A stretch of DNA of 46,215 nucleotides, from the IMG/VR virus record IMGVR_UViG_3300022853_001307, positions 1 through 46,215 of that record. One strand, 5' to 3'. The translations under genes and the position numbers were made by a program. This document shows, one piece after another, positions 1 through 46,128 of the stretch (positions are counted from its first letter, which is position 1; each line of letters opens with the position of its first letter). This stretch comes from a virus. The notes under the pieces were generated by a model. The model saw only the letters and a list, made by a program, of their open reading frames with translations, searched no databases and was not told where the DNA came from.

Positions 1-1147
1 GATTCTTTAACACGTCCGTTAATGCTCGTTGTTTTCGAGTTGCACGTGGTTCCATGTATGCCAGTGCTTCATCTATTATGGTGTGCAACAGTTCTCGAGG
101 CAACGACAACGGACTTAGTATTTCGTCGTTGGAGAATGTGAACATCACTTTGGTTAGTATTTCAGCATCTAATTCCTGACTCAGATCAAACATATTTTTA
201 AGCTCTAACAGTCCTGGCAAGGTGAGTGTGTAATCCAATCTCATTTCCCTGGCGGTCTTGGCCACGGCCAGACCTTCTTTAAAATTATTCATCCAATCTG
301 CATAGTTCAATCCGTCTCTGATGTATTCTCCCACTTCTGCTGTGCCATCCAAAGAAGCACACACCTGCCAGTCTTGAAACTGTGGCAGAAGATCAAACAG
401 TTTGATGCCTTTGAACGACGTCCTGCTTAGATTGGTATTGTATCGCACACACACATCTTTAGCGAATCCTAGTTCTATTATTCTCTGCATGGCCTGCCAG
501 TGTATATCCCACATCAGGGGTTCTCCCCCGCACCAATATATCTCTTTTATGGTCTTAGATTCTATGGCACTTAAGAACTCTTCCACAACCTGTGTGTCTT
601 GGAACTGTTTGATCTGCTCTCTCAGCGGTGATGCCATCCACGGCTGATTGTCCTTGTTCCAGGTGCCCTGCTTTCGTGATTCTGCTTCCCAACTGCTGGA
701 CAACATATCTCCGCACATCCTACATTTAAAATTACATAGATTGTTAAAACGATAATCAAAACTTATTGTGGGCATTGTGGTGGCGCCCGTGTCATCTGTG
801 CTGTCGTACGCTTCGTCGATCTTATCAGCAAACAGTTGATTCCAGTAGGATCTGTAAACATCAGTGTTCAATAATTTGTGTGTGCATACTTCACATTCAG
901 ACAATTCTTCTCCGGCCATCATACGCAGTCGTACAGATCGCATATGTTCTGAATTCCAGTGCTCTTTGAGTGTGAGAGGGTTGTATTTGTTTGCATCATT
1001 GCCTGCGTCTATGTACTGGCGGAAACTCTGTGCTGGTTCCCTGGATGCACAACACAGTCGTCTTTCTGTCTGTGGTGACAGGTAGGTGTGTGTCCATGGT
1101 GCCATACAGAACGTCTCGTTGCCCTCACTTGGCTTAATCTTTTTCAT
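1..1147 (-). CDS. N-terminal-twitch radical SAM protein (3' end outside window)
   Basis: Likely iron-sulfur enzyme that cleaves S-adenosylmethionine to start radical chemistry; the substrate is unknown. The 382 visible residues carry C138-x3-C142-x2-C145 (CNFKCRMC), the radical SAM 4Fe-4S motif, followed by a GGEP motif. Before the core lie C14 (FCMAPW), C32-C33 and C85-x2-C88, matching the twitch/SPASM-like half-domain that comes first in the N_twitch rSAM family. The start is ATG at 1147: a stop in the same frame lies just upstream, and the ATG sits inside the last codons of the preceding gene (14-base overlap), which suggests translational coupling. It has no clear Shine-Dalgarno of its own. 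It is closest in style to the next gene (both have CM-x-PW and a CC pair). It runs off the left edge, so the C-terminus is not visible. The family call is firm; the function is not known. Confidence 0.85.
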   Translation of the reverse strand, partial: MKKIKPSEGNETFCMAPWTHTYLSPQTERRLCCASREPAQSFRQYIDAGNDANKYNPLTLKEHWNSEHMRSVRLRMMAGEELSECEVCTHKLLNTDVYRSYWNQLFADKIDEAYDSTDDTGATTMPTISFDYRFNNLCNFKCRMCGDMLSSSWEAESRKQGTWNKDNQPWMASPLREQIKQFQDTQVVEEFLSAIESKTIKEIYWCGGEPLMWDIHWQAMQRIIELGFAKDVCVRYNTNLSRTSFKGIKLFDLLPQFQDWQVCASLDGTAEVGEYIRDGLNYADWMNNFKEGLAVAKTAREMRLDYTLTLPGLLELKNMFDLSQELDAEILTKVMFTFSNDEILSPLSLPRELLHTIIDEALAYMEPRATRKQRALTDVLKN

Positions 1148-2417
1148 ACAATTCTGCTAATTCTGGAAATACAGTTAATATGTTTTCATCTCTGATAGCA
1201 TCTATACGCTTCATGCTGTCTTTGAACTGCTGTAGGTCCTTGGAGTTGTCTCTCCTCATCATGTAATCTAGTCCTGATTCAAATCCCTTGGTTGCACGAG
1301 TTAGATTATCCTGTGGACGTAACCATTCTAGATGTTTTTCGTATTTTTCTTTTATTCGTTGTTTAAATGCGTCGGGCAATAGATCTATCCTCTGTGCATA
1401 CGGAAATTGTAATAGATTAAAATTAAAATCCTGGGGTTTTAACAGTCCTTGATCTACCCAATTGCGATGGAAGTCTGGAATGTGCAGAGCATTGATAAGT
1501 CCCACTGTGCTGGATATGTAGAAGTCCACTTTAGGACAGACTTCCAGCATACGTCGTCTGTTTGCTACCACATCCGACCACACAGTGCCTTTACGCATGA
1601 ACTCTCCTCTAGTTCCTTCAGCATCCAGACTGGCTCCTATGGACACAGAATCAAATTTGTTCCATAGTTCCAACACATCCATATCTTTGAATTTTAACTT
1701 TGTAAAGTTTGTGTTGTAGATCAATCTCACGTGATACATTTTACGTCTATCTAGTTCTTTTAGAATCCTATAATGCTCTTCCATGATAAGTGGTTCTCCA
1801 CCTGCAAAATAAAACTGCTCCACGTGATCAAACTGTTCCAACATCTGCTCCCATATATCATCAGAGCTTCTGCCTACTCGCATGATCTTTGCATGTTCAG
1901 GTGGTTTGCCTGTTAGTTTTTTATGATCTTCATACCAATTAGACGAGAACCATGTGCCACAACTCCTACAAGCAAGATTGCATAGGTTACTGAATCTTAT
2001 ATCCCAATACTTGATAACAAATTCCGCACTACCATCTGCTTGTGTGTTTTCTGTCATGCCGATGTTGTGTCCAAAATGTTTGTTTGAACTCAAACGCAAT
2101 GAGAAGAATCCTGACTTCTCTTGATCGTAACATTTAGTACACTGCTTACTTGGTTTGTTTGCCAACATGTTTGTTCGCATCTGTCGCATATCTGGCCCAT
2201 TAAACACAGTTTCCATAGAGTCTTTGTTTAAATCCCCTACAGGGTATCGGTCCAGGGCAAAACAGCAAGGATATGCACGACCGTCTGGAAAGGCATGCAG
2301 ATGTAGCCATGGCATCATACAGAAAGTATCTGACTCCAGCAGGAGTTCCTTCTCAGTAGGAGTCATGTCTTTTATCTTTAATTTTTCAGGCTCTTTAGCC
2401 CCGTATTCATAAGCCAT
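1134..2417 (-). CDS. N-terminal-twitch radical SAM protein
   Basis: This 427-residue radical SAM enzyme has C146-x3-C150-x2-C153 (CNLACRSC) binding the catalytic cluster, and a later GGEP motif that normally contacts SAM. The N-terminal half shows C33-x12-G46-x4-C51, the opening pattern of a SPASM domain, then C52 and C93-x2-C96. The auxiliary-cluster region therefore precedes the radical SAM core, as in the N_twitch family, whereas SPASM is usually C-terminal. The start ATG at 2417 is preceded by AGGAG at 9 bases and overlaps the end of the upstream gene by 11 bases. The product and substrate are unknown; related enzymes modify peptides, sugars or cofactors. It is one of four tandem paralogues, most similar to the gene on its left. 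Confidence 0.88.
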   Translation of the reverse strand: MAYEYGAKEPEKLKIKDMTPTEKELLLESDTFCMMPWLHLHAFPDGRAYPCCFALDRYPVGDLNKDSMETVFNGPDMRQMRTNMLANKPSKQCTKCYDQEKSGFFSLRLSSNKHFGHNIGMTENTQADGSAEFVIKYWDIRFSNLCNLACRSCGTWFSSNWYEDHKKLTGKPPEHAKIMRVGRSSDDIWEQMLEQFDHVEQFYFAGGEPLIMEEHYRILKELDRRKMYHVRLIYNTNFTKLKFKDMDVLELWNKFDSVSIGASLDAEGTRGEFMRKGTVWSDVVANRRRMLEVCPKVDFYISSTVGLINALHIPDFHRNWVDQGLLKPQDFNFNLLQFPYAQRIDLLPDAFKQRIKEKYEKHLEWLRPQDNLTRATKGFESGLDYMMRRDNSKDLQQFKDSMKRIDAIRDENILTVFPELAELYEKD

Positions 2418-3753
2418 TGTACCATGCTCCTATCTTTGGGAAAGTCTTGGCAAAATCCTTGCCTCGTCTCTCGTCGTATTGTTTATAGAAATTTTTAAAG
2501 TCTGACCTCAGTTTTGGTAAATCAAATGCTTCAGAATGCGGTGTTTTTACTGTGTCTAGATAGTCTATTAATCGTTGGGTGTGTGCCACTTCCATGGGTT
2601 CTAAATTCCCTATCTGTCGAGTTAACCATGCATCTAGATTGTTTTTAAACTCTGTTCTCAAGTGGTCTGGCAGTACCAGCGGTGATTGGAATGATGGGAA
2701 CCTTAAAATGTTTAGGGTGAAATTAACATCCACTCCGTAGACTCGCTTGGCATCAATCTTGTTTTGTACGATCTTGTCCAGGAACTCTGGCAATGATTCC
2801 AGGCACAGTGCATTCACCGTACACATGTTGTGCATACCTGCAGGTCGTAATTGATTGATCACATTGGCAAAATTCATGTACCATTCAGAGAAATTCATTC
2901 CGTCTCTGATGTAATCCGATTGAGCAAATGTGGCTTCGTTGGAAGTGTATATGTGTAGGTTGGGCACATTTTTACATTTCTCGATAAACTTGAGAAACAG
3001 ATCCCCTTTGGGTACAAGGTTAGAATTTATAGCAAATCTCATCTTAGGATTTACTCGGTGTTTCTCAGTTTCAAACCAATCTAGCAGTCTCCATAGGTGT
3101 GGGCTCATCATGGGCTCTCCGCCTGTGATTCTCAATTCTTCCAGTGTGCGATGTAGATCAGATTCCCACCATTTGAAAAATGCTTCCACATAGGGATTGG
3201 TCTCGTCCAACTTGTATGGCTGTGCAGATTCGTGTGAGTGTGTGAAATGATTTCTACCATCTGATACCAATTCAGTGTACGATCCTTTTTGTTTGATGTC
3301 TTTGGCCCAGGTGGTTGAGAATGCTGGATTACAATATGAACAAGCAAAGTTACAGGTCCTGTCAAAGGCAATCTCCAAAGTCTTAAGGTCAACGTCCTCT
3401 GTTATGGGCGTTTGGCTTGCTACCTCGAGGTCCACATCTGAATAAATTTTACTTTTATAAACTCTGTCACTCACAGCATCTTTGCCCATGTCCTCGATCT
3501 TCCAACAGTATTCACACCCCGCGGGTCTTTCTCCTGCAATCATTTTAGCACGATCCTGTTTTTTCTGAGGAGTGTTGTGCAGTTCTTTTGGGTTCTGCGT
3601 TACTTTAGCAAGATCAACTCGGTGTGCTGGAGGATGGTGACAGCTTGTGGTCATGCCTGATCCCAGCCATATTGTGGCATTGTACCATTTGGCTCCACAA
3701 AACGATGGAGAAATAGAATCTAGTATCTGTTTTTTATAGTCTATGTCTTTCAT
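2407..3753 (-). CDS. N-terminal-twitch radical SAM protein
   Basis: This 448-residue protein has radical SAM cysteines C134-x3-C138-x2-C141 (CNFACSYC) and a GGEP motif. Its N-terminal cysteines are C19 (FCGAKW), C38 (SCHHPP) and C80-x2-C83 inside AGERPAGCEYCWK. This layout is shared with the next gene to the right (3750-5123) but not with the two on the left, so the two right-hand genes form one subfamily. The ATG overlaps the upstream stop as ATGA, with AGGA about 8 bases before it. The expected reaction is reductive SAM cleavage; the auxiliary cysteines could hold a second iron-sulfur cluster. The substrate is unknown. No membrane segment or signal peptide is visible, so it should act in the host cytoplasm. 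Confidence 0.88.
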   Translation of the reverse strand: MKDIDYKKQILDSISPSFCGAKWYNATIWLGSGMTTSCHHPPAHRVDLAKVTQNPKELHNTPQKKQDRAKMIAGERPAGCEYCWKIEDMGKDAVSDRVYKSKIYSDVDLEVASQTPITEDVDLKTLEIAFDRTCNFACSYCNPAFSTTWAKDIKQKGSYTELVSDGRNHFTHSHESAQPYKLDETNPYVEAFFKWWESDLHRTLEELRITGGEPMMSPHLWRLLDWFETEKHRVNPKMRFAINSNLVPKGDLFLKFIEKCKNVPNLHIYTSNEATFAQSDYIRDGMNFSEWYMNFANVINQLRPAGMHNMCTVNALCLESLPEFLDKIVQNKIDAKRVYGVDVNFTLNILRFPSFQSPLVLPDHLRTEFKNNLDAWLTRQIGNLEPMEVAHTQRLIDYLDTVKTPHSEAFDLPKLRSDFKNFYKQYDERRGKDFAKTFPKIGAWYNGL

Positions 3754-5123
3754 TGTGTGTTCCTACACTCCTCCCAGAATTCTCTCATCTCCGGAAATGT
3801 TTTTAACAAACTAGTGCCACGTCTACGATCGTGTTCCGTAAAAAATGTGTAAAAATTCTTTTTTTGTTCTGTAGTGTTTGCGTAATTTTTTTGCCAGTAC
3901 GCTAAATTGCGTTGCATTTTTTGAATCTCAAAGTCTTTGAACAGTGTATAATCCGTTTGATCTTCTCCTGAATTTGCCTGCATCCACTCTATGTTCTCTT
4001 GATGTATCAGCTGGTACGACTCGGGTAGCAGTGTGATCTGTTGCCAAGCAGGCTGACGCAGTAGGGGGATATCGAACCATACTCGCTGATAGGTGGTGGA
4101 ATGTTTTCTCCTCAACTGCTGTATGTCCTCCAACAGTGCCCTCAACGAAGTGACAGATAGATTGTTGTAGGTTATTATGAAAGTGACGGAATTACGCACA
4201 GGGATCATGGTTAAAAAATCATCCACATTGGCCATCATTTTTTTATAATCTAACCCGTGTCGCATGTACTCTGCCTGTCGGCCCCATCCGTCCACTGAAA
4301 CAAACTGCATGAAATGTTCCACTTTCTTTTCGTGACATATACGACTCACAGCATTGAAGTATTTGGATTTCAGTTTGGGGTCTGGTGGGCACATGTTAGA
4401 TGTCACATTCAGGTGTAGATCTGGTTTGGGGTGATCTATGACATAATCAAACACTCGATACGTGTTCCGGTCCATCATGGGTTCTCCACCGGTCATACGG
4501 AAATGTTTCAATCCTTTGTACAGCTCCGGCCACCAACGCCAGAATGCATCCACATAAGCATTGGGATCTTTGTTGGGTATGGGTTTTCGACGACCCGCAA
4601 AGTGCTCAGGTGCATTATGCTGTGGAGAGGTGGGATATGCTCCGTATCGGTCGATCTCTTTGCCCCACGTGGTGGAAAACTGTGGGGAACAGTAGGAACA
4701 AGCAAAGTTACAAGCATTGTTGAAATTCACTTCCACATAACGAGGAGTGTGTGTGGCATCAAAGGGATCTAATTTTATCTTCTCTAGATCTTCCATGGCC
4801 CAGGGCTCACCAGAACGATAGTGACGATCTGACATCTCACCTGTGTCTTCCATTTTCCAACAGTAGGAACACCCTGCAGGTCGTTCGCCCGCAATCATCA
4901 GTTTTCTTTGTTTTAGTTTTTCCGCTGTGTTATGCAGTGCGGCTGGATTGGCGGCCAGCGAGTCAGCATCTATCTCGTGGAGAGGTGGATGATAACAAGA
5001 ATTTGTAAGTCCTGTGGGCAGATGCAGTGATACCTGATTCCATTTGGCCAGACACATGGTGGGAGATATTTTCTCTAACTCCTGTTTGGCTCGTTCTGCG
5101 TCTGCTTTGTAGTTACTACTCAC
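3750..5123 (-). CDS. N-terminal-twitch radical SAM protein (GTG start)
   Basis: This radical SAM enzyme has 457 residues when started at GTG 5123. An ATG at 5201 is also in frame but would overlap the upstream gene by 86 bases. The GTG has AGGAG (5133-5137) 9 bases upstream and overlaps the upstream stop by only 8 bases, like the other junctions here. From the GTG, cysteines are C24 (MCLAKW), C43 (SCYHPP), C85-x2-C88 (AGCSYCWK) and the catalytic C138-x3-C142-x2-C145 (CNFACSYC), followed by GGEP. It is a close paralogue of the gene to its left: shared blocks are AGERPAGC-x-YCWK, CNFACSYC and FSTTW. It is the first radical SAM gene of the cassette, directly after a glycosyltransferase. The substrate is unknown. 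Confidence 0.87.
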   Translation of the reverse strand: MSSNYKADAERAKQELEKISPTMCLAKWNQVSLHLPTGLTNSCYHPPLHEIDADSLAANPAALHNTAEKLKQRKLMIAGERPAGCSYCWKMEDTGEMSDRHYRSGEPWAMEDLEKIKLDPFDATHTPRYVEVNFNNACNFACSYCSPQFSTTWGKEIDRYGAYPTSPQHNAPEHFAGRRKPIPNKDPNAYVDAFWRWWPELYKGLKHFRMTGGEPMMDRNTYRVFDYVIDHPKPDLHLNVTSNMCPPDPKLKSKYFNAVSRICHEKKVEHFMQFVSVDGWGRQAEYMRHGLDYKKMMANVDDFLTMIPVRNSVTFIITYNNLSVTSLRALLEDIQQLRRKHSTTYQRVWFDIPLLRQPAWQQITLLPESYQLIHQENIEWMQANSGEDQTDYTLFKDFEIQKMQRNLAYWQKNYANTTEQKKNFYTFFTEHDRRRGTSLLKTFPEMREFWEECRNTQ

Positions 5124-6012
5124 GGTCTTGTACTCCTGTGTTCTTGTAGGATGGTTGGCAGAACTTGAAGAAACAACTGGCATCGGCATCGTAATCTGCA
5201 AGGGGTAATCCCAATCGTTGTCGCAGTGAGTTGCCGTACATTTTGATCAGTTCCTCGGTGTCTTTCTCTATAAAAAAGCTCATGCAATAATCTAAATCTC
5301 TAGTGCGTTCAATGTTGAATCCTGTGTTGTTGGCATCGCCGAGAGTGACATTGTAACAGCCCATCCTTGCACCCAACATGGCATACTTGCCGTTTTCCAC
5401 ATCTGCTCCCACACTCTGCCATGTGGCAAGTGTCTGTAAATTTTGTCGGTGTATCCGACTCATGAAATCTGCTGGCTGTATGCGTTCTCCCTGATCCAGA
5501 CTCATTTTGACACCTTCCCTGAATCCTGCCAGGAATGCCTGTTCTGGAGATGCATGGATCACGGTCTCTGAGTAGACATTGTGTAGGTTCTCGTGTGGCA
5601 CCGTCCAACAGAAATCTATCTTGGCCCGCTCGTCCACTGCGTTCTCATGGGTTCGCATTGTGAGGCAGGTTTCTCTGGGCCATCCTACCACGCCGCCGTT
5701 GCCATATATCAATCCGTTGATGGAATTCCTGGCTCTCCAACGATGCACTGCTTTCCTGTCAGTTTTAGACCAGTCCATTGTCTGTAGTAAAAACTTGGGA
5801 TCAATCACGTTGTCACCGTCCACGGATATAAAGAATTCTGTTTCCGCAATCTCTGCCGCGGCTTTGTGTGCTGAATCAAATCCCACCACACCGTCCACTC
5901 GTTTGGCCCATGGCACGATGTTTAATAGATCAGCATAATTGTATTCCTTGTTGGGTTCACGGAATGATATGAACACGAAATCTAGATCTGATATCCTTAC
6001 TTTTTCTGCCAT
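5116..6012 (-). CDS. GT-A-like glycosyltransferase
   Basis: Predicted nucleotide-sugar glycosyltransferase of 298 residues. The N-terminal part has alternating hydrophobic strands (DFVFISFREPN), then TEFFISVDGDN at about residues 58-68, where DGD fits the metal- and nucleotide-binding DxD of GT-A folds. The downstream aromatic, Gly-rich segment (INGLIYGNGGVVGW) resembles an acceptor-site region. The start was set at ATG 6012, with AGGA 8 bases before it, rather than an in-frame ATG at 6054 that would overlap the preceding gene further. It ends inside the GTG start of the first radical SAM gene, so sugar-transfer and radical SAM genes are translationally linked. Donor and acceptor are not predictable from the sequence. 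Confidence 0.7.
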   Translation of the reverse strand: MAEKVRISDLDFVFISFREPNKEYNYADLLNIVPWAKRVDGVVGFDSAHKAAAEIAETEFFISVDGDNVIDPKFLLQTMDWSKTDRKAVHRWRARNSINGLIYGNGGVVGWPRETCLTMRTHENAVDERAKIDFCWTVPHENLHNVYSETVIHASPEQAFLAGFREGVKMSLDQGERIQPADFMSRIHRQNLQTLATWQSVGADVENGKYAMLGARMGCYNVTLGDANNTGFNIERTRDLDYCMSFFIEKDTEELIKMYGNSLRQRLGLPLADYDADASCFFKFCQPSYKNTGVQDRE

Positions 6013-6341
6013 GAATACATCCTTTCTCCTTTGTCTATAAACGTTTCTGGCCAATATGGATTGCTTTGTAACAATTTATACCCTTTTTCGTCTGTGGGCA
6101 ATAATTCGTCTTCCAATGTTTTTAATTTTACAACAGGTCTAGGCAATATCTTTAAACCATTCCATATATAATTCTCTAAACCGCCGTCACGTAATTTAGC
6201 ATAAGTTTCTGAATTTATTTCTATTACTTTTTCTAATTCTTTGTGTCCTATATGGGTTATTTTTTCCCTTTCCACTTTCATAAAATATTTTAGTCTAGGT
6301 CTAGAGTTGAATTGTGAAAGGGCTTTAAAAAATTCGGTCAT
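5997..6341 (-). CDS. Small hypothetical protein between glycosyltransferases
   Basis: I do not recognise this 114-residue protein. It is a real gene by context: GGAGG lies 7 bases before ATG 6341, it overlaps its neighbours by 17 and 16 bases, and it is collinear with them. It is charged and soluble, without cysteines, signal peptide or membrane span. The C-terminal third contains a Trp/Tyr/Pro-rich segment (SNPYWPETFIDKGERMYSW). Being small and placed inside a glycosyltransferase and radical SAM operon, it could be an accessory subunit or a modification substrate; this is inference from position only. Confidence 0.6.
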   Translation of the reverse strand: MTEFFKALSQFNSRPRLKYFMKVEREKITHIGHKELEKVIEINSETYAKLRDGGLENYIWNGLKILPRPVVKLKTLEDELLPTDEKGYKLLQSNPYWPETFIDKGERMYSWQKK

Positions 6342-7134
6342 TTAAATCCTCCCTGATAGACTTTTCATAGTAGTGCCATAATCTGTTAGGTCTGTAACCG
6401 CCAATATAGTAGTCATCACCAATTTGATAAGGACTCACGTAATTATAGAGAGTTTTATCCTGATGTATATTTTTTTGTATGCCAATCTTGCCGTGTATAA
6501 AATTAAACCATTCGTATCTTACAGAATACTGTTGTGTTGGATCCTGTATCTTGCTGGCCAATCCGTACACCACATCGGTTGTGGGATTGTCGTCATGACA
6601 GTTGAGTAATATATTTTGTTTTACAAACTCCCAATGTTTGATTATTAGCTCGCATAATGTGTAGAACTCAAATGCTCGTTGACTGCGTCTAAAATAGTGT
6701 AATCCGTTGTACACATCAGGCAGTAGATTCTGTCTGTTAATGTTCCTGTATGGAGAATACTCAACAATGTTGTCTTGATAGTCTCTGCAATGATGTGAAA
6801 AGATCAAATCGTGTTGTTGTAGATGATTCCACCACCAATCTATATTTTCAGGAACGATAACATCTGCTTCCAATTTAATTGTGTGCGTGAATGGTGATAG
6901 ATTAAAAACTTTATATTCGTTGTTCAATTTCCACTCAATATCGTTGCTGTCATCGGTCTCCATCACAATCACGTGATCAAATACATCTGCCAGTACCGGT
7001 GTTTGCTTGTCTGTTATTACTGCCACTTGATTTATACTGCATTTACTTTTGATGTTCTTACATAGTTCAATACTCAGTTGCATATAATCCACTGTGGAGT
7101 TGTTCTGTGCTATCCATAGAAATCCTCTAGTCAT
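6325..7134 (-). CDS. GT-A-like glycosyltransferase (possible GT8-like)
   Basis: Predicted glycosyltransferase of 269 residues. It opens with a short strand (TRGFLWIAQN), has a second strand with a cluster of acidic residues (VIVMETDD), and reaches LEADVIV at about residues 88-94, where EAD is a plausible variant of the DxD metal motif. The rest is rich in Trp, Tyr and His, as often seen in acceptor sites. The start is ATG 7134, with AAGGAG at 7142-7147 seven bases upstream; an in-frame ATG at 7164 was rejected because it has a longer overlap and no such site. It overlaps its upstream neighbour by 8 bases. It is similar in layout, but not closely in sequence, to the next gene. The sugar and acceptor are unknown. 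Confidence 0.6.
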   Translation of the reverse strand: MTRGFLWIAQNNSTVDYMQLSIELCKNIKSKCSINQVAVITDKQTPVLADVFDHVIVMETDDSNDIEWKLNNEYKVFNLSPFTHTIKLEADVIVPENIDWWWNHLQQHDLIFSHHCRDYQDNIVEYSPYRNINRQNLLPDVYNGLHYFRRSQRAFEFYTLCELIIKHWEFVKQNILLNCHDDNPTTDVVYGLASKIQDPTQQYSVRYEWFNFIHGKIGIQKNIHQDKTLYNYVSPYQIGDDYYIGGYRPNRLWHYYEKSIREDLNDRIF

Positions 7135-7870
7135 TCCAATACTCCTTGTCAAAAACGTGTACATCTTGATTCTCTATAGTTGCTTGATATGTTTTCCAAT
7201 TATAAGTTAATGCATTATCAGTTATATCTAATATGTTAGCATCAGCACCCATCATAAACATAGGCTCTGGCAGACAATATTCTGTTGAGTTGAAACCGTA
7301 CATCTGATGTAGTGCTATAGCAAATGCATAATCATTCCTGTAATTTTTGTGTTTGATTCTGTACAAATTTCTATAGTGATGATAATAGTTTCTCACGTGT
7401 TTTATCATGTCAAACACCGATGACACCCGGTTGTTTTTTTTAAATATAACCACTGTGGCCCACACTAACGGAATCAAACTATCGCGAGGATCCCAAAGAT
7501 TACGTTGGTGAGTGATGTCGTACACTCGATCGTGTACTAGAATATCATCCACCGCGTTGCTCAGTTCTAACAACCGATCTGACATAACAAAATAATCACA
7601 ATCCATCAGTATGGTTGTGTCGTAGGGACTGTGCTCATAAACATTGGCTCTCTCATAGTTGTACCATGGTACCATCTTATCCTGGTAGCGTCTTTGATTG
7701 CCTGTGGTGGGCGAAACCTTTATGTTATTGACTCCGTCAAAACCTCCATCTCCCACCACAGTTATAGGCAGTCCCAAATGAGTATTAATGTGATGTATGC
7801 ATCTTTTGGTGATAGTGGAATATCGGTGTTGATCTGTATTGAAACTGTAGAGCAGAACCCCTGTGGTCAT
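7127..7870 (-). CDS. GT-A-like glycosyltransferase
   Basis: This 247-residue protein starts with a hydrophobic strand and HRYSTITKRCI, contains TVVGDGGFDG, and then TTILMDCDYFVMS at about residues 85-97. DCD at 90-92 is a good DxD motif at the end of a strand, typical of GT-A nucleotide-sugar transferases. A later aromatic region (NYRNDYAFAIALHQMYG) resembles the acceptor-side helix of glycosyltransferases of this type. The ATG overlaps the stop of the upstream gene as ATGA. It is the first of three glycosyltransferases in the cassette that follows the tail-fibre genes. The substrate is unknown; phage proteins of this kind may glycosylate DNA, virion proteins or host envelope. Confidence 0.65.
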   Translation of the reverse strand: MTTGVLLYSFNTDQHRYSTITKRCIHHINTHLGLPITVVGDGGFDGVNNIKVSPTTGNQRRYQDKMVPWYNYERANVYEHSPYDTTILMDCDYFVMSDRLLELSNAVDDILVHDRVYDITHQRNLWDPRDSLIPLVWATVVIFKKNNRVSSVFDMIKHVRNYYHHYRNLYRIKHKNYRNDYAFAIALHQMYGFNSTEYCLPEPMFMMGADANILDITDNALTYNWKTYQATIENQDVHVFDKEYWND

Positions 7871-8190
7871 TTTTTTGCTCGTGTTTTAAATTGTGAATAG
7901 ATCTGGTGATATCGATTAACAGTTTCTTGATTGCGTTCAATTAGTTTTTCTAAAAATTCTGCAGGATGTGTGATCGCACAAGGATTGTTGTTTGTGTCCA
8001 TCACGTAGACAGTGCCGTTGACTCGTTGGCTCAGCACAGCGACCAGATTAATGGTTTCGGCATTGGCTCGAAATAGGTGATGATTATAGACTAGTATCTG
8101 TCGGCTCTTTATTTTTTCCAGAGCATTTTGCTTGTCAACCGCGATCGAGTGAGCTAGATCAGATTTTTCTTTGAGTGTGTTGATATCCAT
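7867..8190 (-). CDS. Conserved-looking small protein at head of glycan/radical SAM cassette
   Basis: This 107-residue protein starts from ATG 8190; a GTG at 8205 in the same frame is an alternative, and neither has a strong Shine-Dalgarno. It is helical and charged: an N-terminal Lys/Glu-rich helix, a middle strand region (VNGTVYVMDTNNNPCAIT), then a C-terminal helix rich in Arg, Gln and Lys. There is no recognisable catalytic motif or membrane span. It is the first gene after the fibre cluster and overlaps the first glycosyltransferase by 4 bases. It looks like a general phage accessory protein, but I cannot assign a function. The 71 bases before it hold an AT-rich motif described separately. 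Confidence 0.6.
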   Translation of the reverse strand: MDINTLKEKSDLAHSIAVDKQNALEKIKSRQILVYNHHLFRANAETINLVAVLSQRVNGTVYVMDTNNNPCAITHPAEFLEKLIERNQETVNRYHQIYSQFKTRAKK

Positions 8191-8261: not shown

Positions 8262-9290
8262 TTATAAACTAGAGGCAGAACCGTCATCGTTTCTGGTGCT
8301 GGAAACTTTGGCCACAGTGATAGTGTTCATGCCATTGGTAACATCCAATCCACCGGAGTTGTTTGGATCCATTGTACCAAAAATTGAGGTGGTAGGTCCC
8401 ATGGAATTTTGTTGCACTCCATCTTGGCCTGTGCCTGTTTGTGTTGCATCTCCTGTGTCATAATCAGTAGTGACACCATCATCGGCATCGATGGTGAATC
8501 TCAGAGTGACTACTTCGCCGTTGTTGCCTGCTCCGTCCGCGTGTGCGGCACTGGTTTTAGCTTCAACTACCACACTCAATTGGTTGTTGTAGCTGGTGTT
8601 GTATGTGCCTGTGGTTTCTGTTAAAGTAAAAACATTCTGATATGAAGTGGTCAGATCGTAGTAGCCTATGTTGAGATCCCCGGACACTGTGTCTGCTGGT
8701 GTGCCTGTGACGGTGCTGGCGGTTGATCCCAGTCTAAACGATCCCATCTGTGTGAACAGATCTGTCATCACGGTGTCTTTACCTGTGGTGTGGGTCGCTG
8801 TGTTAGCGGCAGAGGTGATTCCCACTTTTCCTCCGGCATTGAAGAACCAACGAGCTTCATTCCCGCCAAGAAAAGTGTAAGACACTTCCATGACGTGCGA
8901 TTGGTCAAATACAGCTCCTGATGCCAGTGATAGATCTGATGTTATAGCATCGATGTTTGCTCCGGCGACTGTTCCGGCCGCTACTCCATTTTTCAAAGAC
9001 AATAGATTCGCCTCTAAAGTTGATTTGACTGCTATAGAATCCCCTGCTGACACATCAGTTGTTGAATCCACTGACACACCAGTGTGTGCGGCAATAAGAT
9101 CCATTTGATCAAAAAGATTGTTCCACTGTGATGCGGAGATAGTGTCACCTGCTGTGACTGCGGCAACGGCCGATTGTCCAAGGCCAAGATTTCCTGTGCC
9201 TGTGCTTGCTAGTGTGTTGACACCGTTGGTGCCGTTGATAAATGCCAAATACTCGTCGTCTAAAATTGCGTCACCTGCTTGATATGCCAT
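8262..9290 (-). CDS. Tail fibre / virion structural protein
   Basis: This 342-residue protein is rich in Thr, Ser, Ala, Gly, Asn and Asp and poor in Cys, the composition of a beta-rich fibre or adhesin. It begins MAYQAGDAILDDEY, a start style I associate with structural proteins of marine T4-like phages, followed by TISASQWNNLFDQMD. The middle part has beta-strand-like runs (EARWFFNAGGKVGITS, VVTLRFTIDADDG). It is the last gene of the fibre cluster. An AGGAG inside the end of the preceding gene serves as a distant ribosome site. No enzymatic motif is visible. It is probably exposed on the particle; the exact place is unknown. Confidence 0.6.
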   Translation of the reverse strand: MAYQAGDAILDDEYLAFINGTNGVNTLASTGTGNLGLGQSAVAAVTAGDTISASQWNNLFDQMDLIAAHTGVSVDSTTDVSAGDSIAVKSTLEANLLSLKNGVAAGTVAGANIDAITSDLSLASGAVFDQSHVMEVSYTFLGGNEARWFFNAGGKVGITSAANTATHTTGKDTVMTDLFTQMGSFRLGSTASTVTGTPADTVSGDLNIGYYDLTTSYQNVFTLTETTGTYNTSYNNQLSVVVEAKTSAAHADGAGNNGEVVTLRFTIDADDGVTTDYDTGDATQTGTGQDGVQQNSMGPTTSIFGTMDPNNSGGLDVTNGMNTITVAKVSSTRNDDGSASSL

Positions 9291-9294
9291 AAAA

Positions 9295-10920
9295 CTATTT
9301 AACTCCTATTACACACTCGTGTAGTTCTGTTTGTTCTGAGTATTTAGCCTGGATCAGTCTGCCCAGGGTGTTAAAAGCGGTACATTCGTCTAGGTTGGCC
9401 ACCCGTGCCTCACCATTGCCTGCGGAAACCACACGATCTCCTGCCTGTCCTGTGCCTGCTATCTTGACACTGACCCGTCCTTTGAGTGCTATCATGGGGT
9501 GTGAGTCATTGTTGCCTGCATCTGCGTTCATCAAGTAGGCTGGTTTGTCAGATACAACTCCAAACACAGCATCGTCCAATTCCCTGTTGCACAGTGTGAT
9601 CTCCTGTGTGCCGCCCAATATCACCACATCTCCCACTGACACAGGTACATCTGTGGCATAACGCTCGGCCAAGTCAGCGTACTGTGCTGATGTGGATGTT
9701 GCATGCACTATGTTGGCTCGTATGTCCACCAACGTGGGGGCGGACAGCTCATCCTGTCCTGCGGATTTGAATGCTGTCCAAGCACCGCCTGCGTTGCCGT
9801 ATATTGATGATCCATCATCTGCGAATGTCTCGTCCCACACCCAGTACAGGTCCTGCTCGGTGTCAACCGACGTGAACCCTCTGTTTACCTTTAGTCCTGA
9901 GTAGTTGGGCATCGCCGCCGCGGTGGAAACATTTCTGTTCACTTCAATGATGTTGTCTTCAACGGACAGGGTGGTTGTGTTGATGATGGTCTGTGTGCCA
10001 TCCACTGTGAGATTGCCTGACACTCTTAAATTGTTTATTGCTCCGTCTGTGAATGTAACCTGTCCATCACCGCCGTCCAGCGTCATTAATGTTTTGGTAA
10101 CTCCGCCATCGTTCACTGTGAAAAGTATATCACCATTGGATGATGTGTTGGCCACAGTGACGTCTGTGCCTGACACCGTAACAGTTAGATCCGATCCTGC
10201 ACCCACTGTCAATCCTGAATCGCTGAGGATACCCAGTGAGCCTGACGTGGTGTCATTTGCATTGCTTCTCAAGTAGTTTGCCGCGGCAACTCCGCCCAGT
10301 GCATCTGCATCTGTGGCAGTGCCTGTGAGTCTGTTGGAAGCGATTGCCGTGGACAGTGTGATACCTTTGGATATCGTGGCAAAACCTGATATGGCTGTGC
10401 CTGGTGTGAATTCTTCCGCGGACACTATGCCTACCACGGCGTCATTGGTTATGAATTTTAAAATGCTTTTGTTCACTCCCACGTTGTCTGCGACCACTTC
10501 TGCGGATGCCTGTGTCACTCCCGATCCTGCCACTGTGGTCGGACCAATCAAGGTCCATGCTGTGCTGTTGTACACGTAAAACTGTGAGTTGTTGGTGTCA
10601 AACCAAAAATCCCCTGTGTTGGCGTTGGTGGGTGCTGTGGTGGCATTGGTGGAAGATCCCACTGGTTTGAATTTGGATCCGTTCCACACCTTGAGTTGAT
10701 TGTTTAATGAATCATACCATAGCTGACCTTTTTGTTTGTTGGCCGGTGCGGACGTGTTTGAGAAATTCTCTAGGAGTTTGACAAGGTTTTCATTCAGTCT
10801 TTCACCGAATCCTGCATAGCCTTTACCAAACAGAGCAAGGTCCGTCGTGACAGTGTCGATGGTTCCGTCTGTCAGGGTGACCAGTGTTGCGCCGCTTGTG
10901 TTGTTAATGACGTATGCCAT
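9295..10920 (-). CDS. Tail fibre protein, paralogue 1 (YADLAE C-terminal domain)
   Basis: This 541-residue fibre-like protein has three parts. The N-terminus (about 1-120) contains LFGKGYAGFGERLNENLVKLLENF and GQLWYD, shared with the proteins at 12534-13937 and 13948-15438. The middle is Thr/Ser/Gly-rich with repeated NDGGVT and SGNLTVDG elements, typical of beta-structured fibre shafts. The C-terminal 128 residues begin YADLAERYATD and look like a compact domain, also found in the paralogue at 13948-15438. It resembles the trimerising or autoproteolytic end domains of phage fibres, but I see no proof of cleavage. TAAGGAG overlaps the stop of the preceding 58-residue gene and gives a good ribosome site. 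Expected role: host recognition at the tail tip. Confidence 0.75.
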   Translation of the reverse strand: MAYVINNTSGATLVTLTDGTIDTVTTDLALFGKGYAGFGERLNENLVKLLENFSNTSAPANKQKGQLWYDSLNNQLKVWNGSKFKPVGSSTNATTAPTNANTGDFWFDTNNSQFYVYNSTAWTLIGPTTVAGSGVTQASAEVVADNVGVNKSILKFITNDAVVGIVSAEEFTPGTAISGFATISKGITLSTAIASNRLTGTATDADALGGVAAANYLRSNANDTTSGSLGILSDSGLTVGAGSDLTVTVSGTDVTVANTSSNGDILFTVNDGGVTKTLMTLDGGDGQVTFTDGAINNLRVSGNLTVDGTQTIINTTTLSVEDNIIEVNRNVSTAAAMPNYSGLKVNRGFTSVDTEQDLYWVWDETFADDGSSIYGNAGGAWTAFKSAGQDELSAPTLVDIRANIVHATSTSAQYADLAERYATDVPVSVGDVVILGGTQEITLCNRELDDAVFGVVSDKPAYLMNADAGNNDSHPMIALKGRVSVKIAGTGQAGDRVVSAGNGEARVANLDECTAFNTLGRLIQAKYSEQTELHECVIGVK

Positions 10921-11126: not shown

Positions 11127-12527
11127 TTATCCTTTTTGTGGATCATAAATCTCTAACCATTTTGCAAATTTTTTCTCTACAAAAGGTGTTGCAATCGCTC
11201 CTACGATCCAACAGAAACTCTCACCTATTATTCTTGTTGCTATACCTAATGCATCTCTGTCCTTTTTCACTCCCATTGCATAGCATAATTCGTTTGCTCG
11301 AGCCTGTGCTAGAGCTCTGATCACTCGTATCACCAACTGGCCGAACCAACTGTTGTTCTTTTCTGATTGAGTCATGTACTGTACCAAAGGTACTGCCCAA
11401 AACCAATATCCAATTTTAACTGTCCTACTGATGTATTTTACACTATATTCGGTGTCAGTTGCAAGATCTTCTGCTGAAAATAAACCTCTTTGTTGTAGCC
11501 AAGTACAAATAACTCTACCTCCACCACCTCCACCTCCAGAACCTGGCGTGCCTGATGATGAATTACCCGATGAATCTCCAAAACCTGCGGCTGTGGATGC
11601 GAAATTTACTCCTGCGTTGAACATGGCTTTCCATGCTCCTGAAACTTTGGTGTATGCGGCTGTGACCTGCTTCCATGACCCTGAAACTTTGGTGTACATG
11701 TTTGTAGTGTCTTTCCATGCACCTGCCACTTTGTATTTCGCTTGTACTCCGATGTTGAATGTAATAACTGCTAGACCATTTGCACCTGTACTTGCGGCAC
11801 CGGCTCCTTGAGCCACACCTGCTTGATACACTGCATCTCCTGTGCCTCCGGGTGTTTGTCCTGAACCATTGTTCTCTGAACCACTCACAGCTAGATTGGA
11901 TCCTGAATAACCTCCTGTGCCTCCGTTGTCTCCTGAACCACCTGAACCTCCCTTGCCTCCGTCAGCGCCTCCTCCAGCGCCTCCTCCACCGCCACCGTCT
12001 CCAGAGTGATCGGCACCATTTTCTCCCAGTGTGCCTGGTGTTTCCGTTGTGGCTGAATTTGTGTTGATACCTGCTGTACCGTTTGAACCTTGGCCTGCTC
12101 CTGCGCCGCCGCCTCCGCCGCCTGCAATTGCAATCGCTGTGGAATCTATTAATACCACTGTGGCTCCTCCTCCAGCACCTCCACCTCCTGAATAAGGAGT
12201 AGGTCCTGCGTTACCACCTCTTCCGCCTGAATAACCTGTTAAACTTTTTCCGTTTGCACCACCTGGTGCTCCTCCCCCGGATCCTCCACCAGCTCCACCA
12301 CCGCCCACTCCCACTTTGAGAGTATCTCCAATGTTTGATGATAAACTGATAGATGACTTAGTGACATAATGTCCAGCGGCTCCTACGCCTCCTGGTCCAC
12401 CTGCATCACCACCGCCACCGCCTCCACCGCCTCCCCATAGAGAAACATCTATAGAAGTTGTGCCAGCTGGTACGACCACCTGTTGAGTTGTGCCTGTGTA
12501 GGTAAAAGTTTTAACGACTGTTGGCAT
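11127..12527 (-). CDS. Glycine-rich adhesin-like tail protein
   Basis: This 466-residue protein has a beta-like N-terminus (VKTFTYTGTTQQVVVPAG), then about 200 residues with many Gly runs (up to nine in a row). Polyglycine loops of this sort form the receptor-binding tip in adhesins such as T4-type gp38, and similar Gly-rich domains occur in other phage fibres. After this come three short repeats (KVAGAWK, KVSGSWK, KVSGAWK), another Gly run, and a helical C-terminus (CTWLQQRGLFSAEDLATD, WFWAVPLVQYM, ANELCYAMGVKK) of a kind found at the end of many phage tail adhesins. It sits among fibre genes. GGAGG 11 bases before the ATG supports the start. Likely exposed and variable. Confidence 0.7.
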   Translation of the reverse strand: MPTVVKTFTYTGTTQQVVVPAGTTSIDVSLWGGGGGGGGGDAGGPGGVGAAGHYVTKSSISLSSNIGDTLKVGVGGGGAGGGSGGGAPGGANGKSLTGYSGGRGGNAGPTPYSGGGGAGGGATVVLIDSTAIAIAGGGGGGAGAGQGSNGTAGINTNSATTETPGTLGENGADHSGDGGGGGGAGGGADGGKGGSGGSGDNGGTGGYSGSNLAVSGSENNGSGQTPGGTGDAVYQAGVAQGAGAASTGANGLAVITFNIGVQAKYKVAGAWKDTTNMYTKVSGSWKQVTAAYTKVSGAWKAMFNAGVNFASTAAGFGDSSGNSSSGTPGSGGGGGGGRVICTWLQQRGLFSAEDLATDTEYSVKYISRTVKIGYWFWAVPLVQYMTQSEKNNSWFGQLVIRVIRALAQARANELCYAMGVKKDRDALGIATRIIGESFCWIVGAIATPFVEKKFAKWLEIYDPQKG

Positions 12528-12533
12528 AGGAGA

Positions 12534-13937
12534 TTAAGCCTCCCTTACGAACCAAAAGTCTCCGTCAGCGCCGTCACCTGAAGTGGGTGCAGACGTGGAA
12601 ACTGTTTTTGCTGATGTACCCCAAAGAGGTTGTTGTGCGGCCATTAATGTTGCAACAGCACCTGTGGAAGGCACAGTGGCTACACTTGTGTCAGTGAGTG
12701 CAAAAGAGCCTACTGCTCCCAGTGTTAACGTGGTCACTTTAACTTGTCCTGAACCGTCTACTTTTAAAACTTTGCTAGCATTAGCATGACCGTCTGTGGT
12801 AGCATCTGCCAATCGTATAATCTGCGAATATGTTTGATTTTCACCTGCTGACCAATAGTTTTCTGATACATCGTAGAACATTCTAGCATCATCTGTGTCT
12901 GATGTTTCAACAATCATTCCTGAATCAGCTTCTGAGTTTCCTGAATTTACTTTAATAAAAGCATCATCATAGGTTGAGATGTTTGATACCGAAGAATTGT
13001 ATTCTCCCGAAATATTTAAATTTCCTGTGATTGTCACATCACCTGTTAGTGCAATATTGCCTGTGGATCCTGTGATTGCTATAGGAGTTTTTGTTACTCC
13101 TCCGTCATTGACTGTGACTGATAAATTTTTGTCTTCAGATGTTTGTGCAAGAGTTATGTTTCCTGTGCTTGCTGTGATTGAAAACTCCTGGCCGTCTCCA
13201 ACAACAATACCGCCGTCTGCATCTATTGTTAATGCTCCTGTTGTGGTGTCTGCCGCATCTGCTCGTAGGAAGTTACCACCAGCAATAACAGTGCCGGAGG
13301 TGTTTGTTGTTCCAGACACATCTAGTGTTGATGCCTGCGTTGAATTACCTGAGAATGATGCTCCCAGTGTTGAATTTAATGTGAGACCTGCACTAACCGA
13401 TGCAAAGCCTGTGATAGCAGAATCTGGTGTGAATGTTTCTTTTGAAAGTATAGCAACTCTGACGTTGCCCACGTACATGGATGAAATAACTTTGCTGACA
13501 CCTGATGCTGTGACTGTTTCAATTTTCCAACCGGACAGTGTTTGTCCTGCTGTGTATTGTGGTCCTACCAATATCCATGCAGACCCTGAATAAAAGTACA
13601 ATTGACTGTTGGTTGAGTCCTGCCAAAGATCTCCTGCTGAGGGTGATGTGGGTTGTGTGCTCTGCACTTTTGCTCCACCAGTGGGTTTGAAACTTGATCC
13701 ATCATACACTTTGATCTGTGCTGTGGATGTGTCAAACCATAATTCACCTTCTATCGGAGCAGACGGTGCTGATGTGGATGCTGAATTTTCTAATAATTTT
13801 ACAAGATTTTCGTTGAGTCCTTCACCAAATCCTGAGTATGATTTACCGAACAACTGCAATGTTGTGGTGTTATCCACTGTACCGTCAGTGATTGTGGTAA
13901 GTGCTGTGCCTCTTGTGTTGTTAATTACGTATGCCAT
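12534..13937 (-). CDS. Tail fibre protein, paralogue 2
   Basis: This 467-residue protein shares its N-terminus with two other proteins here (MAYVINNTRGTAL, LFGKSYSGFGEGLNENLVKLLEN, GELWFD). The middle has the same Thr/Ser/Gly-rich beta style with NDGGVTKTP. It lacks the YADLAE C-terminal domain and ends instead with SAPTSGDGADGDFWFVREA. So the attachment end is conserved while the distal end has been swapped, as expected for receptor-binding variation. A TATAAATA motif lies 7 bases before the ATG and overlaps the stop codon of the previous gene. Confidence 0.72.
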   Translation of the reverse strand: MAYVINNTRGTALTTITDGTVDNTTTLQLFGKSYSGFGEGLNENLVKLLENSASTSAPSAPIEGELWFDTSTAQIKVYDGSSFKPTGGAKVQSTQPTSPSAGDLWQDSTNSQLYFYSGSAWILVGPQYTAGQTLSGWKIETVTASGVSKVISSMYVGNVRVAILSKETFTPDSAITGFASVSAGLTLNSTLGASFSGNSTQASTLDVSGTTNTSGTVIAGGNFLRADAADTTTGALTIDADGGIVVGDGQEFSITASTGNITLAQTSEDKNLSVTVNDGGVTKTPIAITGSTGNIALTGDVTITGNLNISGEYNSSVSNISTYDDAFIKVNSGNSEADSGMIVETSDTDDARMFYDVSENYWSAGENQTYSQIIRLADATTDGHANASKVLKVDGSGQVKVTTLTLGAVGSFALTDTSVATVPSTGAVATLMAAQQPLWGTSAKTVSTSAPTSGDGADGDFWFVREA

Positions 13938-13944
13938 ATACCTA

Positions 13945-13952
13945 TATTTATA
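13945..13952 (-). promoter_or_regulatory. Late promoter motif TATAAATA
   Basis: The minus strand reads TATAAATA, an exact match to the T4-type late promoter element recognised by gp55. It overlaps the stop codon of the fibre gene at 13948-15438 and ends 7 bases before the ATG of the next fibre gene. With the usual start about six bases beyond the motif, the transcript would be nearly leaderless. The stop codon supplies part of the match, so coincidence is possible. Confidence 0.5.
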
Positions 13953-15438
13953 GTTTTCCTACAGATACAAAGATCATCCCTGTGCCTGCTGAACTATGAT
14001 TCTCCAATGCTTTACCTATTATAGTACCAGTTTTTGGATCTATTGCTTTCCTGGCATGACCCGCATTCTGTCCGTCTGTGGTTAATAGATCTCCTTTTGA
14101 AATCTGTCCAAACACTTTCACTGGCACTTTACCCAACAGTGCCACAGCAACTCCATCTGATGTACTATTCATTAGGTATGCTGGATTGGTGGATACCACT
14201 CCTGCTACTCGAGTGTCCTGTGCGAATGTGGATACTGTAACTTCTTTGTTGCCACCAAACACCAACACTGTGCCGGGTTCATAGTTATAGTCTGCAGTGT
14301 ACATCTCTGCCACGTCAGCGTACTGTGCTGATGTTGCTCTAGCATATACCATGCTGTAACCAAAACTGGATGTGCCTAAATCATATGTGTTGTTTGCTGA
14401 AGGTCTGATTGCTCGAGATATCAATGTGCCGGTCATGGTATCTCCAGCTTTTAATACGTTGGAGCTTGCCGCTCCTGTGACTGCTCCTGTCAACGGTCCT
14501 GCGAATGCTGTGGCTGTAAGTGTACCAGATACTTCTAATGCTGTGGATGGTGTTATAGTGCCAATACCTATTCGAGACGATGATGCATCGATGGTCATTA
14601 CTGTGTTGGTTACACCGCCATCATTCACTTTGAATGTGATGTCTGTGTCAGGAGTGATGTTAGAAATAACAGCACCTGTGCTGTCTACTTGTATTTTAAA
14701 ATCGTTGTCTGCACCAACAGTCAATCCAGAATCATTCACAATACCCAGTGTGCCTGATGTGGTGTCGTTGGCATTGCTTGTCAAGTAGTTTGCCGCGGCA
14801 ACTCCGCCCAGTGCATCTGTGTTTGTGGATGTGCCTGTGAGTTTATTACCTGACACATCAGTGGATAAATTAATACCTGCTGTGATTGAAGCGAACCCAG
14901 TGATAGAAGATTTTGGTGTGAAAGAATCCTCTGATATAATTGCAATTCTTGTGCCATCGTTGTACACATTTGTAACATTTTGGTCAGTGTCTGTGGAGTC
15001 TGCTATAACTTCAAATGTTAGACCGTTTGTGGTTCCCGAGGATGAAGGTGGTCCTACCAGTACGTTGGAAGAGCCGTTGTAAAAATATAATTGTCCCGTA
15101 CTGGAATTGATCCAGAAATCTCCCGAAATCTGTCCCAACGGAGCCTCTGTGGCATATGTGGCACCGCCCAGCGGTGAGAACACGCCGGACGAAGTGTAAA
15201 CTTTTAATCTGTCTTCTGACTTATCATACCATAGTTGGCCAATAATGGGTTTAGTGGGTTGCGTTTGATCTGCGAAATTTTCTAATATGTGTAGGAAGTT
15301 CTCAGCAATCTGTTCTCCATATCCTGCATAGCCTTTTCCTATGAGACTAATGTCTGTTTGATCATTGACCACAGAATCCTGCACAGTGTAACTGTTAGGT
15401 GTTGCCGATGTGTCTGTTTTGTTTACTGTGTACGCCAT
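13948..15438 (-). CDS. Tail fibre protein, paralogue 3 (YADVAE C-terminal domain)
   Basis: This 496-residue protein is built like the one at 9295-10920. The N-terminus has LIGKGYAGYGEQIAENFLHILENF and GQLWYD; the middle contains GGVAAANYL and SGLTVGADND; the C-terminal domain of about 123 residues starts YADVAEMY and ends VSVGKL. A 38-base stretch in the middle is identical to paralogue 1, which suggests recent duplication or recombination. AAGGA lies 5 bases before ATG 15438. Expected role: part of the host-recognition apparatus. Which fibre copy is used, and whether all three are in the particle, cannot be judged here. Confidence 0.75.
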   Translation of the reverse strand: MAYTVNKTDTSATPNSYTVQDSVVNDQTDISLIGKGYAGYGEQIAENFLHILENFADQTQPTKPIIGQLWYDKSEDRLKVYTSSGVFSPLGGATYATEAPLGQISGDFWINSSTGQLYFYNGSSNVLVGPPSSSGTTNGLTFEVIADSTDTDQNVTNVYNDGTRIAIISEDSFTPKSSITGFASITAGINLSTDVSGNKLTGTSTNTDALGGVAAANYLTSNANDTTSGTLGIVNDSGLTVGADNDFKIQVDSTGAVISNITPDTDITFKVNDGGVTNTVMTIDASSSRIGIGTITPSTALEVSGTLTATAFAGPLTGAVTGAASSNVLKAGDTMTGTLISRAIRPSANNTYDLGTSSFGYSMVYARATSAQYADVAEMYTADYNYEPGTVLVFGGNKEVTVSTFAQDTRVAGVVSTNPAYLMNSTSDGVAVALLGKVPVKVFGQISKGDLLTTDGQNAGHARKAIDPKTGTIIGKALENHSSAGTGMIFVSVGKL

Positions 15439-16112: not shown

Positions 16113-16120
16113 TATTTATT
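16113..16120 (-). promoter_or_regulatory. Late promoter motif AATAAATA
   Basis: The minus strand reads AATAAATA, matching the NATAAATA late promoter form reported for marine T4-like phages. It overlaps the TAA stop of the giant gene and ends 7 bases before ATG 16105, the same spacing as the motif at 13945-13952. The gene has no ribosome-binding site, which fits a near-leaderless late transcript, but chance is not excluded. Confidence 0.45.
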
Positions 16121-45407: not shown

Positions 45408-45652
45408 GCATTCCCCCCATTACCCGCGGGTGTGTTGGGATATCGTAATAACCACAGTGTCCAGTGCTTGTCAGACATGACAGTTTCCACTGTCACGTTC
45501 TCATCCTTGTCAAATTTAATAGTCAATCGTTTGCGATCGTACAGCTCTTTGATGTGTGGGAAACGTTGTACCCAGGCCTCGAAACGGATCTGCAGATCCA
45601 TGTCATCCATTCTATGGTAGGCAGGCATTGTGCCCAGCAAGCGAGTCTTCAT
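45404..45652 (-). CDS. Hypothetical 82-residue protein
   Basis: This small protein begins MKTRLLGTMPAYHRMDD. A longer in-frame reading exists, but the ATG at 45652 overlaps the nuclease stop as ATGA and is a natural coupled start. It is mixed helix and strand, with RFEAWVQRFPHIKELYDR and WTLWLLRYPNTP, and resembles small conserved T4-like proteins without known role. It lies between the GIY-YIG nuclease and a second hypothetical gene. No cysteine or membrane span is visible. Confidence 0.55.
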   Translation of the reverse strand: MKTRLLGTMPAYHRMDDMDLQIRFEAWVQRFPHIKELYDRKRLTIKFDKDENVTVETVMSDKHWTLWLLRYPNTPAGNGGNA

Positions 45653-46086: not shown

Positions 46087-46128
46087 GTTGGTATTTAAAC
46101 TCAAGATCATATGGAGGAATTTCTTTTG

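Follow-up and report, generated by a model that had tools for sequence, protein, structure and literature searches.

A conserved array of five N-twitch radical SAM enzymes beside putative glycosyltransferase and tail-fibre genes in aquatic T4-like phages

The radical SAM array

The stretch of DNA analysed here (the window) is the 46,215-nt IMG/VR record IMGVR_UViG_3300022853_001307, positions 1 to 46,215. It is a fragment of a T4-like myovirus, as identified by its late sigma factor, SbcCD-like pair, baseplate wedge and hub genes and row of tail-fibre-like genes. The subject of this work is an array of radical S-adenosylmethionine (SAM) genes at the start of the window. A preliminary description had reported four tandem N-twitch radical SAM genes, with C-x3-C-x2-C and GGEP motifs and auxiliary cysteines upstream of these, and four such genes are indeed present in the window. 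However, the relative contig L005, which is 99.99% identical to the window over 12.4 kb and extends past its edge, contains a fifth member of the same family, so that the array consists of five genes:

3750..5123, minus strand: R1, N-twitch radical SAM enzyme, first in the array, GTG start (NF033640, 318 bits)
2407..3753, minus strand: R2, N-twitch radical SAM enzyme, nearest paralog R1 at 33% identity (297 bits)
1134..2417, minus strand: R3, N-twitch radical SAM enzyme with a canonical SPASM-half N-domain (417 bits; Pfam SPASM 46 bits at 33-97)
2..1147, minus strand: R4, N-twitch radical SAM enzyme, 3' end cut by the window edge (303 bits; complete as L005:11271-12554)
L005:12536-13702, outside the window: R5, N-twitch radical SAM enzyme of 388 aa (374 bits)

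The genes overlap by 4 nt (R1/R2), 11 nt (R2/R3), 14 nt (R3/R4) and, in L005, 19 nt (R4/R5). An alternative TTG start for R1 at 5201 would give an 86-nt overlap with the upstream gene.

All five products exceed the curated cut-off (170 bits) of the NCBIfam model NF033640 (N_Twi_rSAM, twitch domain-containing radical SAM protein), scoring 297-417 bits, and Pfam Radical_SAM matches agree with this assignment for the window enzymes. The profile search proposed in the preliminary description thus places all four window enzymes in N_Twi_rSAM, while its SPASM part held for R3 and R4 only; Pfam SPASM is over its cut-off at the N-terminus of these two and also in R5, and in the Pfam scan it is not reached by R1 or R2. 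Each protein has the core motifs C-x3-C-x2-C and GGEP and, N-terminal of this core, C-x17/18-C(C)-x40..51-C-x2-C. In R1, Cys24, 43, 85 and 88 together with C138-x3-C142-x2-C145 are invariant in 50 of 50 orthologs. The N-terminal and core cysteines are invariant among the 45-51 unique orthologs each of R1, R3, R4 and R5, and those of R2 are kept in 52-53 of 53. This C..C(C)..CxxC arrangement, conserved in all five enzymes, follows the twitch/SPASM pattern and suggests that the N-terminal cysteines may form an auxiliary [4Fe-4S] site.

An AlphaFold model of R3 (predicted local distance difference test score, pLDDT, 86), the member for which the barrel was predicted, matches radical SAM barrels and, with the motifs present in all five, places the enzymes in the radical SAM superfamily. 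Its barrel aligns with those of BlsE, CteB, anSME, SkfB, DesII and viperin, tied at Z 12-13, and SuiB is also among the closest structures, whereas the N-terminal half is well predicted and barely covered by structural matches. As sugar and nucleotide enzymes tie here with peptide maturases, the fold alone decides neither a sugar nor a peptide substrate. The nearest solved SPASM/twitch structures include anSME, CteB, SkfB and SuiB, which would suit the main alternative to the glycan reading developed below, namely that R1-R5 modify the neighbouring tail-fibre proteins (by crosslinks, epimerised residues or side-chain oxidation) while the glycosyltransferases work on those proteins independently; the equal Z of BlsE, DesII and viperin tells against it.

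Conservation and selection

Orthology and gene order were counted across 66 IMG/VR loci. R1-R5 fall into five orthologous groups, with identities of 22-33% between paralogs and mostly 50-92% between orthologs (down to 41% for R5). The order R1-R2-R3-R4-R5 occurs in 50 of the 66 loci and R3-R5-R4 in five, the remainder being truncated by contig ends or carrying extra copies, and many loci have another SGNH-like gene between R1 and R2. Related phages therefore carry the cluster itself, and not only the scattered single copies that the preliminary description had named as evidence against it. Chance adjacency is ruled out by an order conserved in dozens of contigs. Median ratios of nonsynonymous to synonymous substitution (dN/dS) of 0.03-0.08 across R1-R5 show strong purifying selection on each, and on the sequence comparisons the five are distinct ancient paralogs. 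The tandem layout, with R1 and R2 as mutually closest paralogs, might have been explained by recent local duplications with redundant function, but the gap between member and ortholog identities, the separate tree clades (see below) and the purifying selection on all members already contradict this, leaving it hardly credible.

The lineage is one of uncultured aquatic tailed phages present in many aquatic metagenomes. A tblastn search of 50,697 phage records with R1-R4 gave only the Vibrio phages K566 and K567 and one marine single-cell contig as relatives, at 22-26% identity, and GTA (see below) had no match in a search of these records. The closest baseplate homologs of the window belong to Atu_ph07/SCTP-2/PA5oct-like large phages (36-38% identity); such phages infect several Proteobacteria, and the assignment of a host was therefore dropped. 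A scan of genome contigs with a profile from the R5 and R3 alignment gave 76-83% matches in contigs of metagenome-assembled genomes (MAGs; L072-L075), and the array genes of L090 match at 87-88%. These and other contigs with complete or partial arrays, binned to Rickettsiales, Pelagibacter, Betaproteobacteria, Flavobacterium and Verrucomicrobia MAGs, are likely phage contamination.

Neighbouring genes

Upstream of the array, the window carries the following genes (locus counts are out of the same 66):

5116..6012, minus strand: GTA, predicted GT-A-fold glycosyltransferase with an SVDGDN motif (AlphaFold pLDDT 92; family in 65 loci)
5997..6341, minus strand: conserved 114-aa gene (53 loci)
6325..7134, minus strand: GTB, putative glycosyltransferase, invariant E-x-D and LEAD in the alignment (61 loci)
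7127..7870, minus strand: GTC, putative glycosyltransferase, invariant D90-x-D92 in the alignment (59 loci)
7867..8190, minus strand: conserved gene of about 107-112 aa between the tail proteins and GTC (52 loci; also in a 338-kb contig and L102)
8262..9290, minus strand: TF5, tail-fibre-locus protein, candidate acceptor (57 loci; same-place homologs in L287 and L102)
9295..10920, minus strand: TF4, virion/tail-fibre-like, PHROG tail-fibre/virion matches (57 loci)
11127-12527, 12534-13937 and 13948-15438, minus strand: three more tail-fibre-like genes (PHROG matches)

Residues 6-154 of the GTA model align to GT-A enzymes (B4GALNT1, Z 9.9 over 141 residues; WrtF, Z 8.9), and the Pfam GT2 match lies below cut-off. 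The SVDGDN motif is present in GTA proper and absent from a long GTA form found downstream. The model thus has the GT-A fold, and GTA is a predicted glycosyltransferase. GTC had no match among PDB sequences.

Downstream of R5, L005 encodes an SGNH-like protein (GGCSFT block, N53, H239-P and H245), a NodU-type carbamoyltransferase, a cupin, a short-chain dehydrogenase/reductase (SDR) epimerase, a PseC/DegT-type aminotransferase and a long GTA-like protein. The families were found in 54 (SGNH-like), 52 (carbamoyltransferase), 46 (SDR) and 40 (aminotransferase) of the loci.

Elsewhere in the window, an open reading frame (ORF) of unusual length (4183 aa) occupies 16116-28667 in the baseplate/tail region. 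A homing-endonuclease-like gene follows the SbcC-like gene at 41897-42676; a second ORF at 45649-46110 has weaker homing-endonuclease matches, its top PHROG label being NAD synthetase. TF4 shares a 134-bp stretch, 87% identical, with the tail-fibre-like gene TF1 (about 10197-10330 and 14709-14842, respectively).

Deeper phage relatives

Scans with R1 reach contigs at 55-60% identity in which GTC-GTB-GTA-R1-R2-R3-R5 is kept. The 338-kb contig has, in order, three TF4-like genes, TF5, the 112-aa gene, GTC, GTB, GTA, R1, R2, R3, R5 and R4, followed by a 368-aa gene, the long GTA, the aminotransferase and the SDR. In the phage-like contig L102, which belongs to a Rickettsiales MAG, TF4, TF5, the 112-aa gene, GTC, GTB and GTA are accompanied by a single N_Twi enzyme, a 735-aa protein (L102:7038-9245) in which an N_Twi radical SAM half precedes a second radical SAM domain. 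The cassette with a single N_Twi enzyme also holds an SGNH-like gene and, by eye, a gene resembling UDP-sugar dehydrogenases. In Vibrio phage K566, N_Twi genes are interleaved with GT8/GT4-like genes. All eight gp6-bearing contigs whose downstream side reaches the locus have N_Twi genes there; none were found in two gp6 contigs ending about 27 kb (G262) and about 21 kb (G268) downstream, which may be too short.

Counted over the whole genome, the large relatives have 5-12 N_Twi matches; the additional ones lie away from the array, some of them next to GalE-type epimerase and glycosyltransferase-like genes. On L107-L109 (G004, G001), single N_Twi genes are scattered in the replication region, near queE-like, GalE-type and glycosyltransferase-like genes.

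Such numbers could also reflect a general iron-sulphur demand, or redox auxiliary metabolic genes, in which case the genes would serve an Fe-S metabolic programme and not one pathway. This is how the 12 radical SAM genes and A-type Fe-S carrier of one T4-like genome, TARA_ERS488813_N000010, were interpreted by Nishimura et al. (2017; PMC5332604), and a PF01521 carrier occurs in 4 of 13 records here. IscU (PF01592) is absent from all 13, and was rejected as a fixed partner of the array. Carriers, moreover, would serve the enzymes and not replace their function, and a specific pathway is indicated by the constant order of the five members and by their five separate lines of orthologs, making this explanation very improbable.

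Bacterial counterparts

An 84-kb contig of Bacteriovoracaceae UBA6144 carries eight tandem N_Twi genes, including relatives of each of R1-R5, flanked by genes reading by eye as rpmA/obgE and lgt. In a maximum-likelihood tree (quick search, with SH-like approximate likelihood ratio supports only), phage R1, R3 and R4 each form one clade, as do R2 and R5 except for one divergent extra copy each, plus a bacterial pair in the case of R2. The UBA6144 genes are sister to, or beside, each of R1-R5 with supports of 80-100, although some forks are open, and the tree does not resolve the direction of transfer between phage and bacterium. Bdellovibrionota were weighed as hosts from this relatedness, and nothing beyond the relatedness supported them.

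Among 241 Bdellovibrionota genomes, R1/R2-like proteins occur in 58 and GTA in 15, 13 of the latter also having the R1 family (Fisher p 2e-7, a value that ignores the shared ancestry of the genomes). In L285 and L286, GTA and the R1 family lie among GT2 genes and FAD oxidoreductase genes with similarity to UDP-galactopyranose mutase, in polysaccharide clusters.

A further bacterial arrangement was seen in Elusimicrobia bin-0981 (G015), where N_Twi radical SAM domains are fused behind long TPR arrays, with six tandem genes per contig (L082 and L088) and 46 R1 matches in one 2.9-Mb genome.

A possible glycan-tailoring module

The preliminary description had proposed that the phage carries a dedicated modification pathway of several steps. 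The conserved order, the purifying selection and the bacterial tandem of the same five subfamilies support this, and that the five act in one pathway is what we infer from them. As to its nature, we consider it about an even call that a phage-encoded module for glycan building and radical tailoring, tied to the tail-fibre locus, has the array as its oxidative core. This reading is supported by the synteny GTC-GTB-GTA-R1-R2-R3-(R4/R5) in marine contigs and in those at 55-60% identity, the 338-kb contig included; by the predicted GT-A fold of GTA; by the carbamoyltransferase, cupin, epimerase and aminotransferase that follow the array; by the low dN/dS; by the co-occurrence of GTA and the R1 family in Bdellovibrionota, in L285 and L286 among polysaccharide genes; and by the retention of TF-GTC-GTB-GTA with a single N_Twi enzyme and the interleaving of N_Twi and glycosyltransferase genes in K566.

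In such a module, GTC, GTB and GTA would assemble a short glycan, with the SDR and DegT enzymes supplying amino sugars. In R1-R5 the [4Fe-4S]-SAM cluster would generate a 5'-deoxyadenosyl radical, the N-terminal twitch cluster serving to relay electrons or to coordinate the substrate, and the five enzymes would perform successive, differing C-H chemistries on sugar or glycan intermediates, e.g., alcohol oxidation as in BtrN, epimerisation or deoxygenation. The SGNH-like and carbamoyltransferase proteins may then decorate the product. Given that tail-fibre genes are linked to the array, the tail fibres or the host surface would be the likely destination of the glycan.

Several observations weigh against this reading. 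Peptide modifiers are among the closest folds of R3; the GTA model matches nucleotidyltransferases at Z similar to those of GT-A enzymes; GTB and GTC are putative glycosyltransferases from motif and position; and the substrate and products are proposed from context. The UBA6144 genome has no GTA match, no tail or glycosyltransferase genes were recognised beside its array, and the association in Bdellovibrionota carries the ancestry effect mentioned above. Extra N_Twi copies of the relatives also lie in replication regions.

Modification of tail-fibre proteins by R1-R5, the chief competitor, is helped by TF4 and TF5 adjoining the array region in marine contigs, the 338-kb contig and L102. The R1 family of L285 and L286, however, lies in polysaccharide clusters without recognised tail genes. 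Among the conserved neighbours no obvious short precursor peptide, and no precursor or recognition domain of ribosomally synthesised and post-translationally modified peptides, was seen by eye, a survey that did not cover ORFs below 60 aa, RRE domains or the 112- and 114-aa genes as substrates. We regard this explanation as unlikely, if the strongest of the alternatives.

A narrower, overlapping version of the glycan module would have a host acceptor, the lipopolysaccharide (LPS) or O-antigen of the infected cell being altered to block superinfection, a role that has been proposed for pelagimyophage glycosyltransferases. In pelagimyophages, according to Zaragoza-Solas et al. (2020; PMC7029224), the host recognition cluster contains both LPS genes and radical SAM cassettes; the bacterial relatives found here also lie in surface-glycan clusters. 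An envelope target, however, leaves the tail-fibre linkage over deep divergence unexplained, and no wzx or wzy (transport/polymerase) was noted at the inspected loci, which were not searched systematically. The kept linkage favours a virion acceptor, and the host-directed version, with the envelope as a possible acceptor, seems rather improbable. We likewise hold only as a doubtful proposition the most specific form of the glycan-module reading, that these large phages encode an entire radical pathway of five steps for making a sugar not seen before on the fibres of their own tails, assembled by a dedicated glycosyltransferase trio, and with a set of enzymes that predatory Bdellovibrionota also have.

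Chemistry of the radical SAM type comes at a high cost and is sensitive to oxygen, and this phage lineage nevertheless keeps a fixed set of five such enzymes. Should glycans indeed be what R1-R5 tailor, the enzymes would be an uncommon source of new sugar chemistry, and virions or infected cells would have a new means of altering their surface.

Comparison with known systems

The preliminary description had missed the fifth enzyme, the glycosyltransferase, tail-fibre and sugar context, and the fact that radical SAM genes had already been reported in phages of this kind, namely in marine T4-like phages in 2017 and 2020. No description of the five-enzyme array, its glycosyltransferase linkage or its bacterial counterpart was found in the open-access literature, and these appear to be undescribed in the searchable literature. 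TARA_ERS488813_N000010 (PMC5332604) has a number of radical SAM genes comparable to that of the relatives here and shares the Fe-S carrier with some of them, whereas its accessible text describes no array or glycan context. The pelagimyophage cluster (PMC7029224), which lies between the VrlC and gp14 genes, resembles the present locus: in both, T4-like marine phages carry radical SAM cassettes within an island of tail-fibre and glycosyltransferase genes. The comparison is one of descriptions, as that text names the cassettes without gene order, number or orthology, and the baseplate protein of the window is nearest to the Atu_ph07-like large phages instead.

With BtrN, anSME, CteB, SkfB and MoaA the array enzymes share the radical SAM barrel and an auxiliary cluster (here predicted from the cysteines), but their auxiliary domain precedes the core instead of following it. 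The auxiliary cysteines of BtrN are spaced C-x17-C-x~44-C-x2-C. This enzyme oxidises an aminocyclitol alcohol (PMC9012708).

The UBA6144 array likewise unites relatives of R1-R5 in one tandem, and differs in having eight genes with extra copies, another order, and no tail, GTA, GTB or GTC genes beside it. The name N_Twi_rSAM carries no assigned reaction, and to our knowledge none is known for the family, so that N_Twi function could be tested on concrete, expressible candidates: the five lines of orthologs, GTA as their partner and the bacterial chromosomal array. R1-R5 resemble this family in scoring far above its cut-off, and differ from it in forming five fixed subfamilies within one operon, joined to a conserved glycosyltransferase trio.

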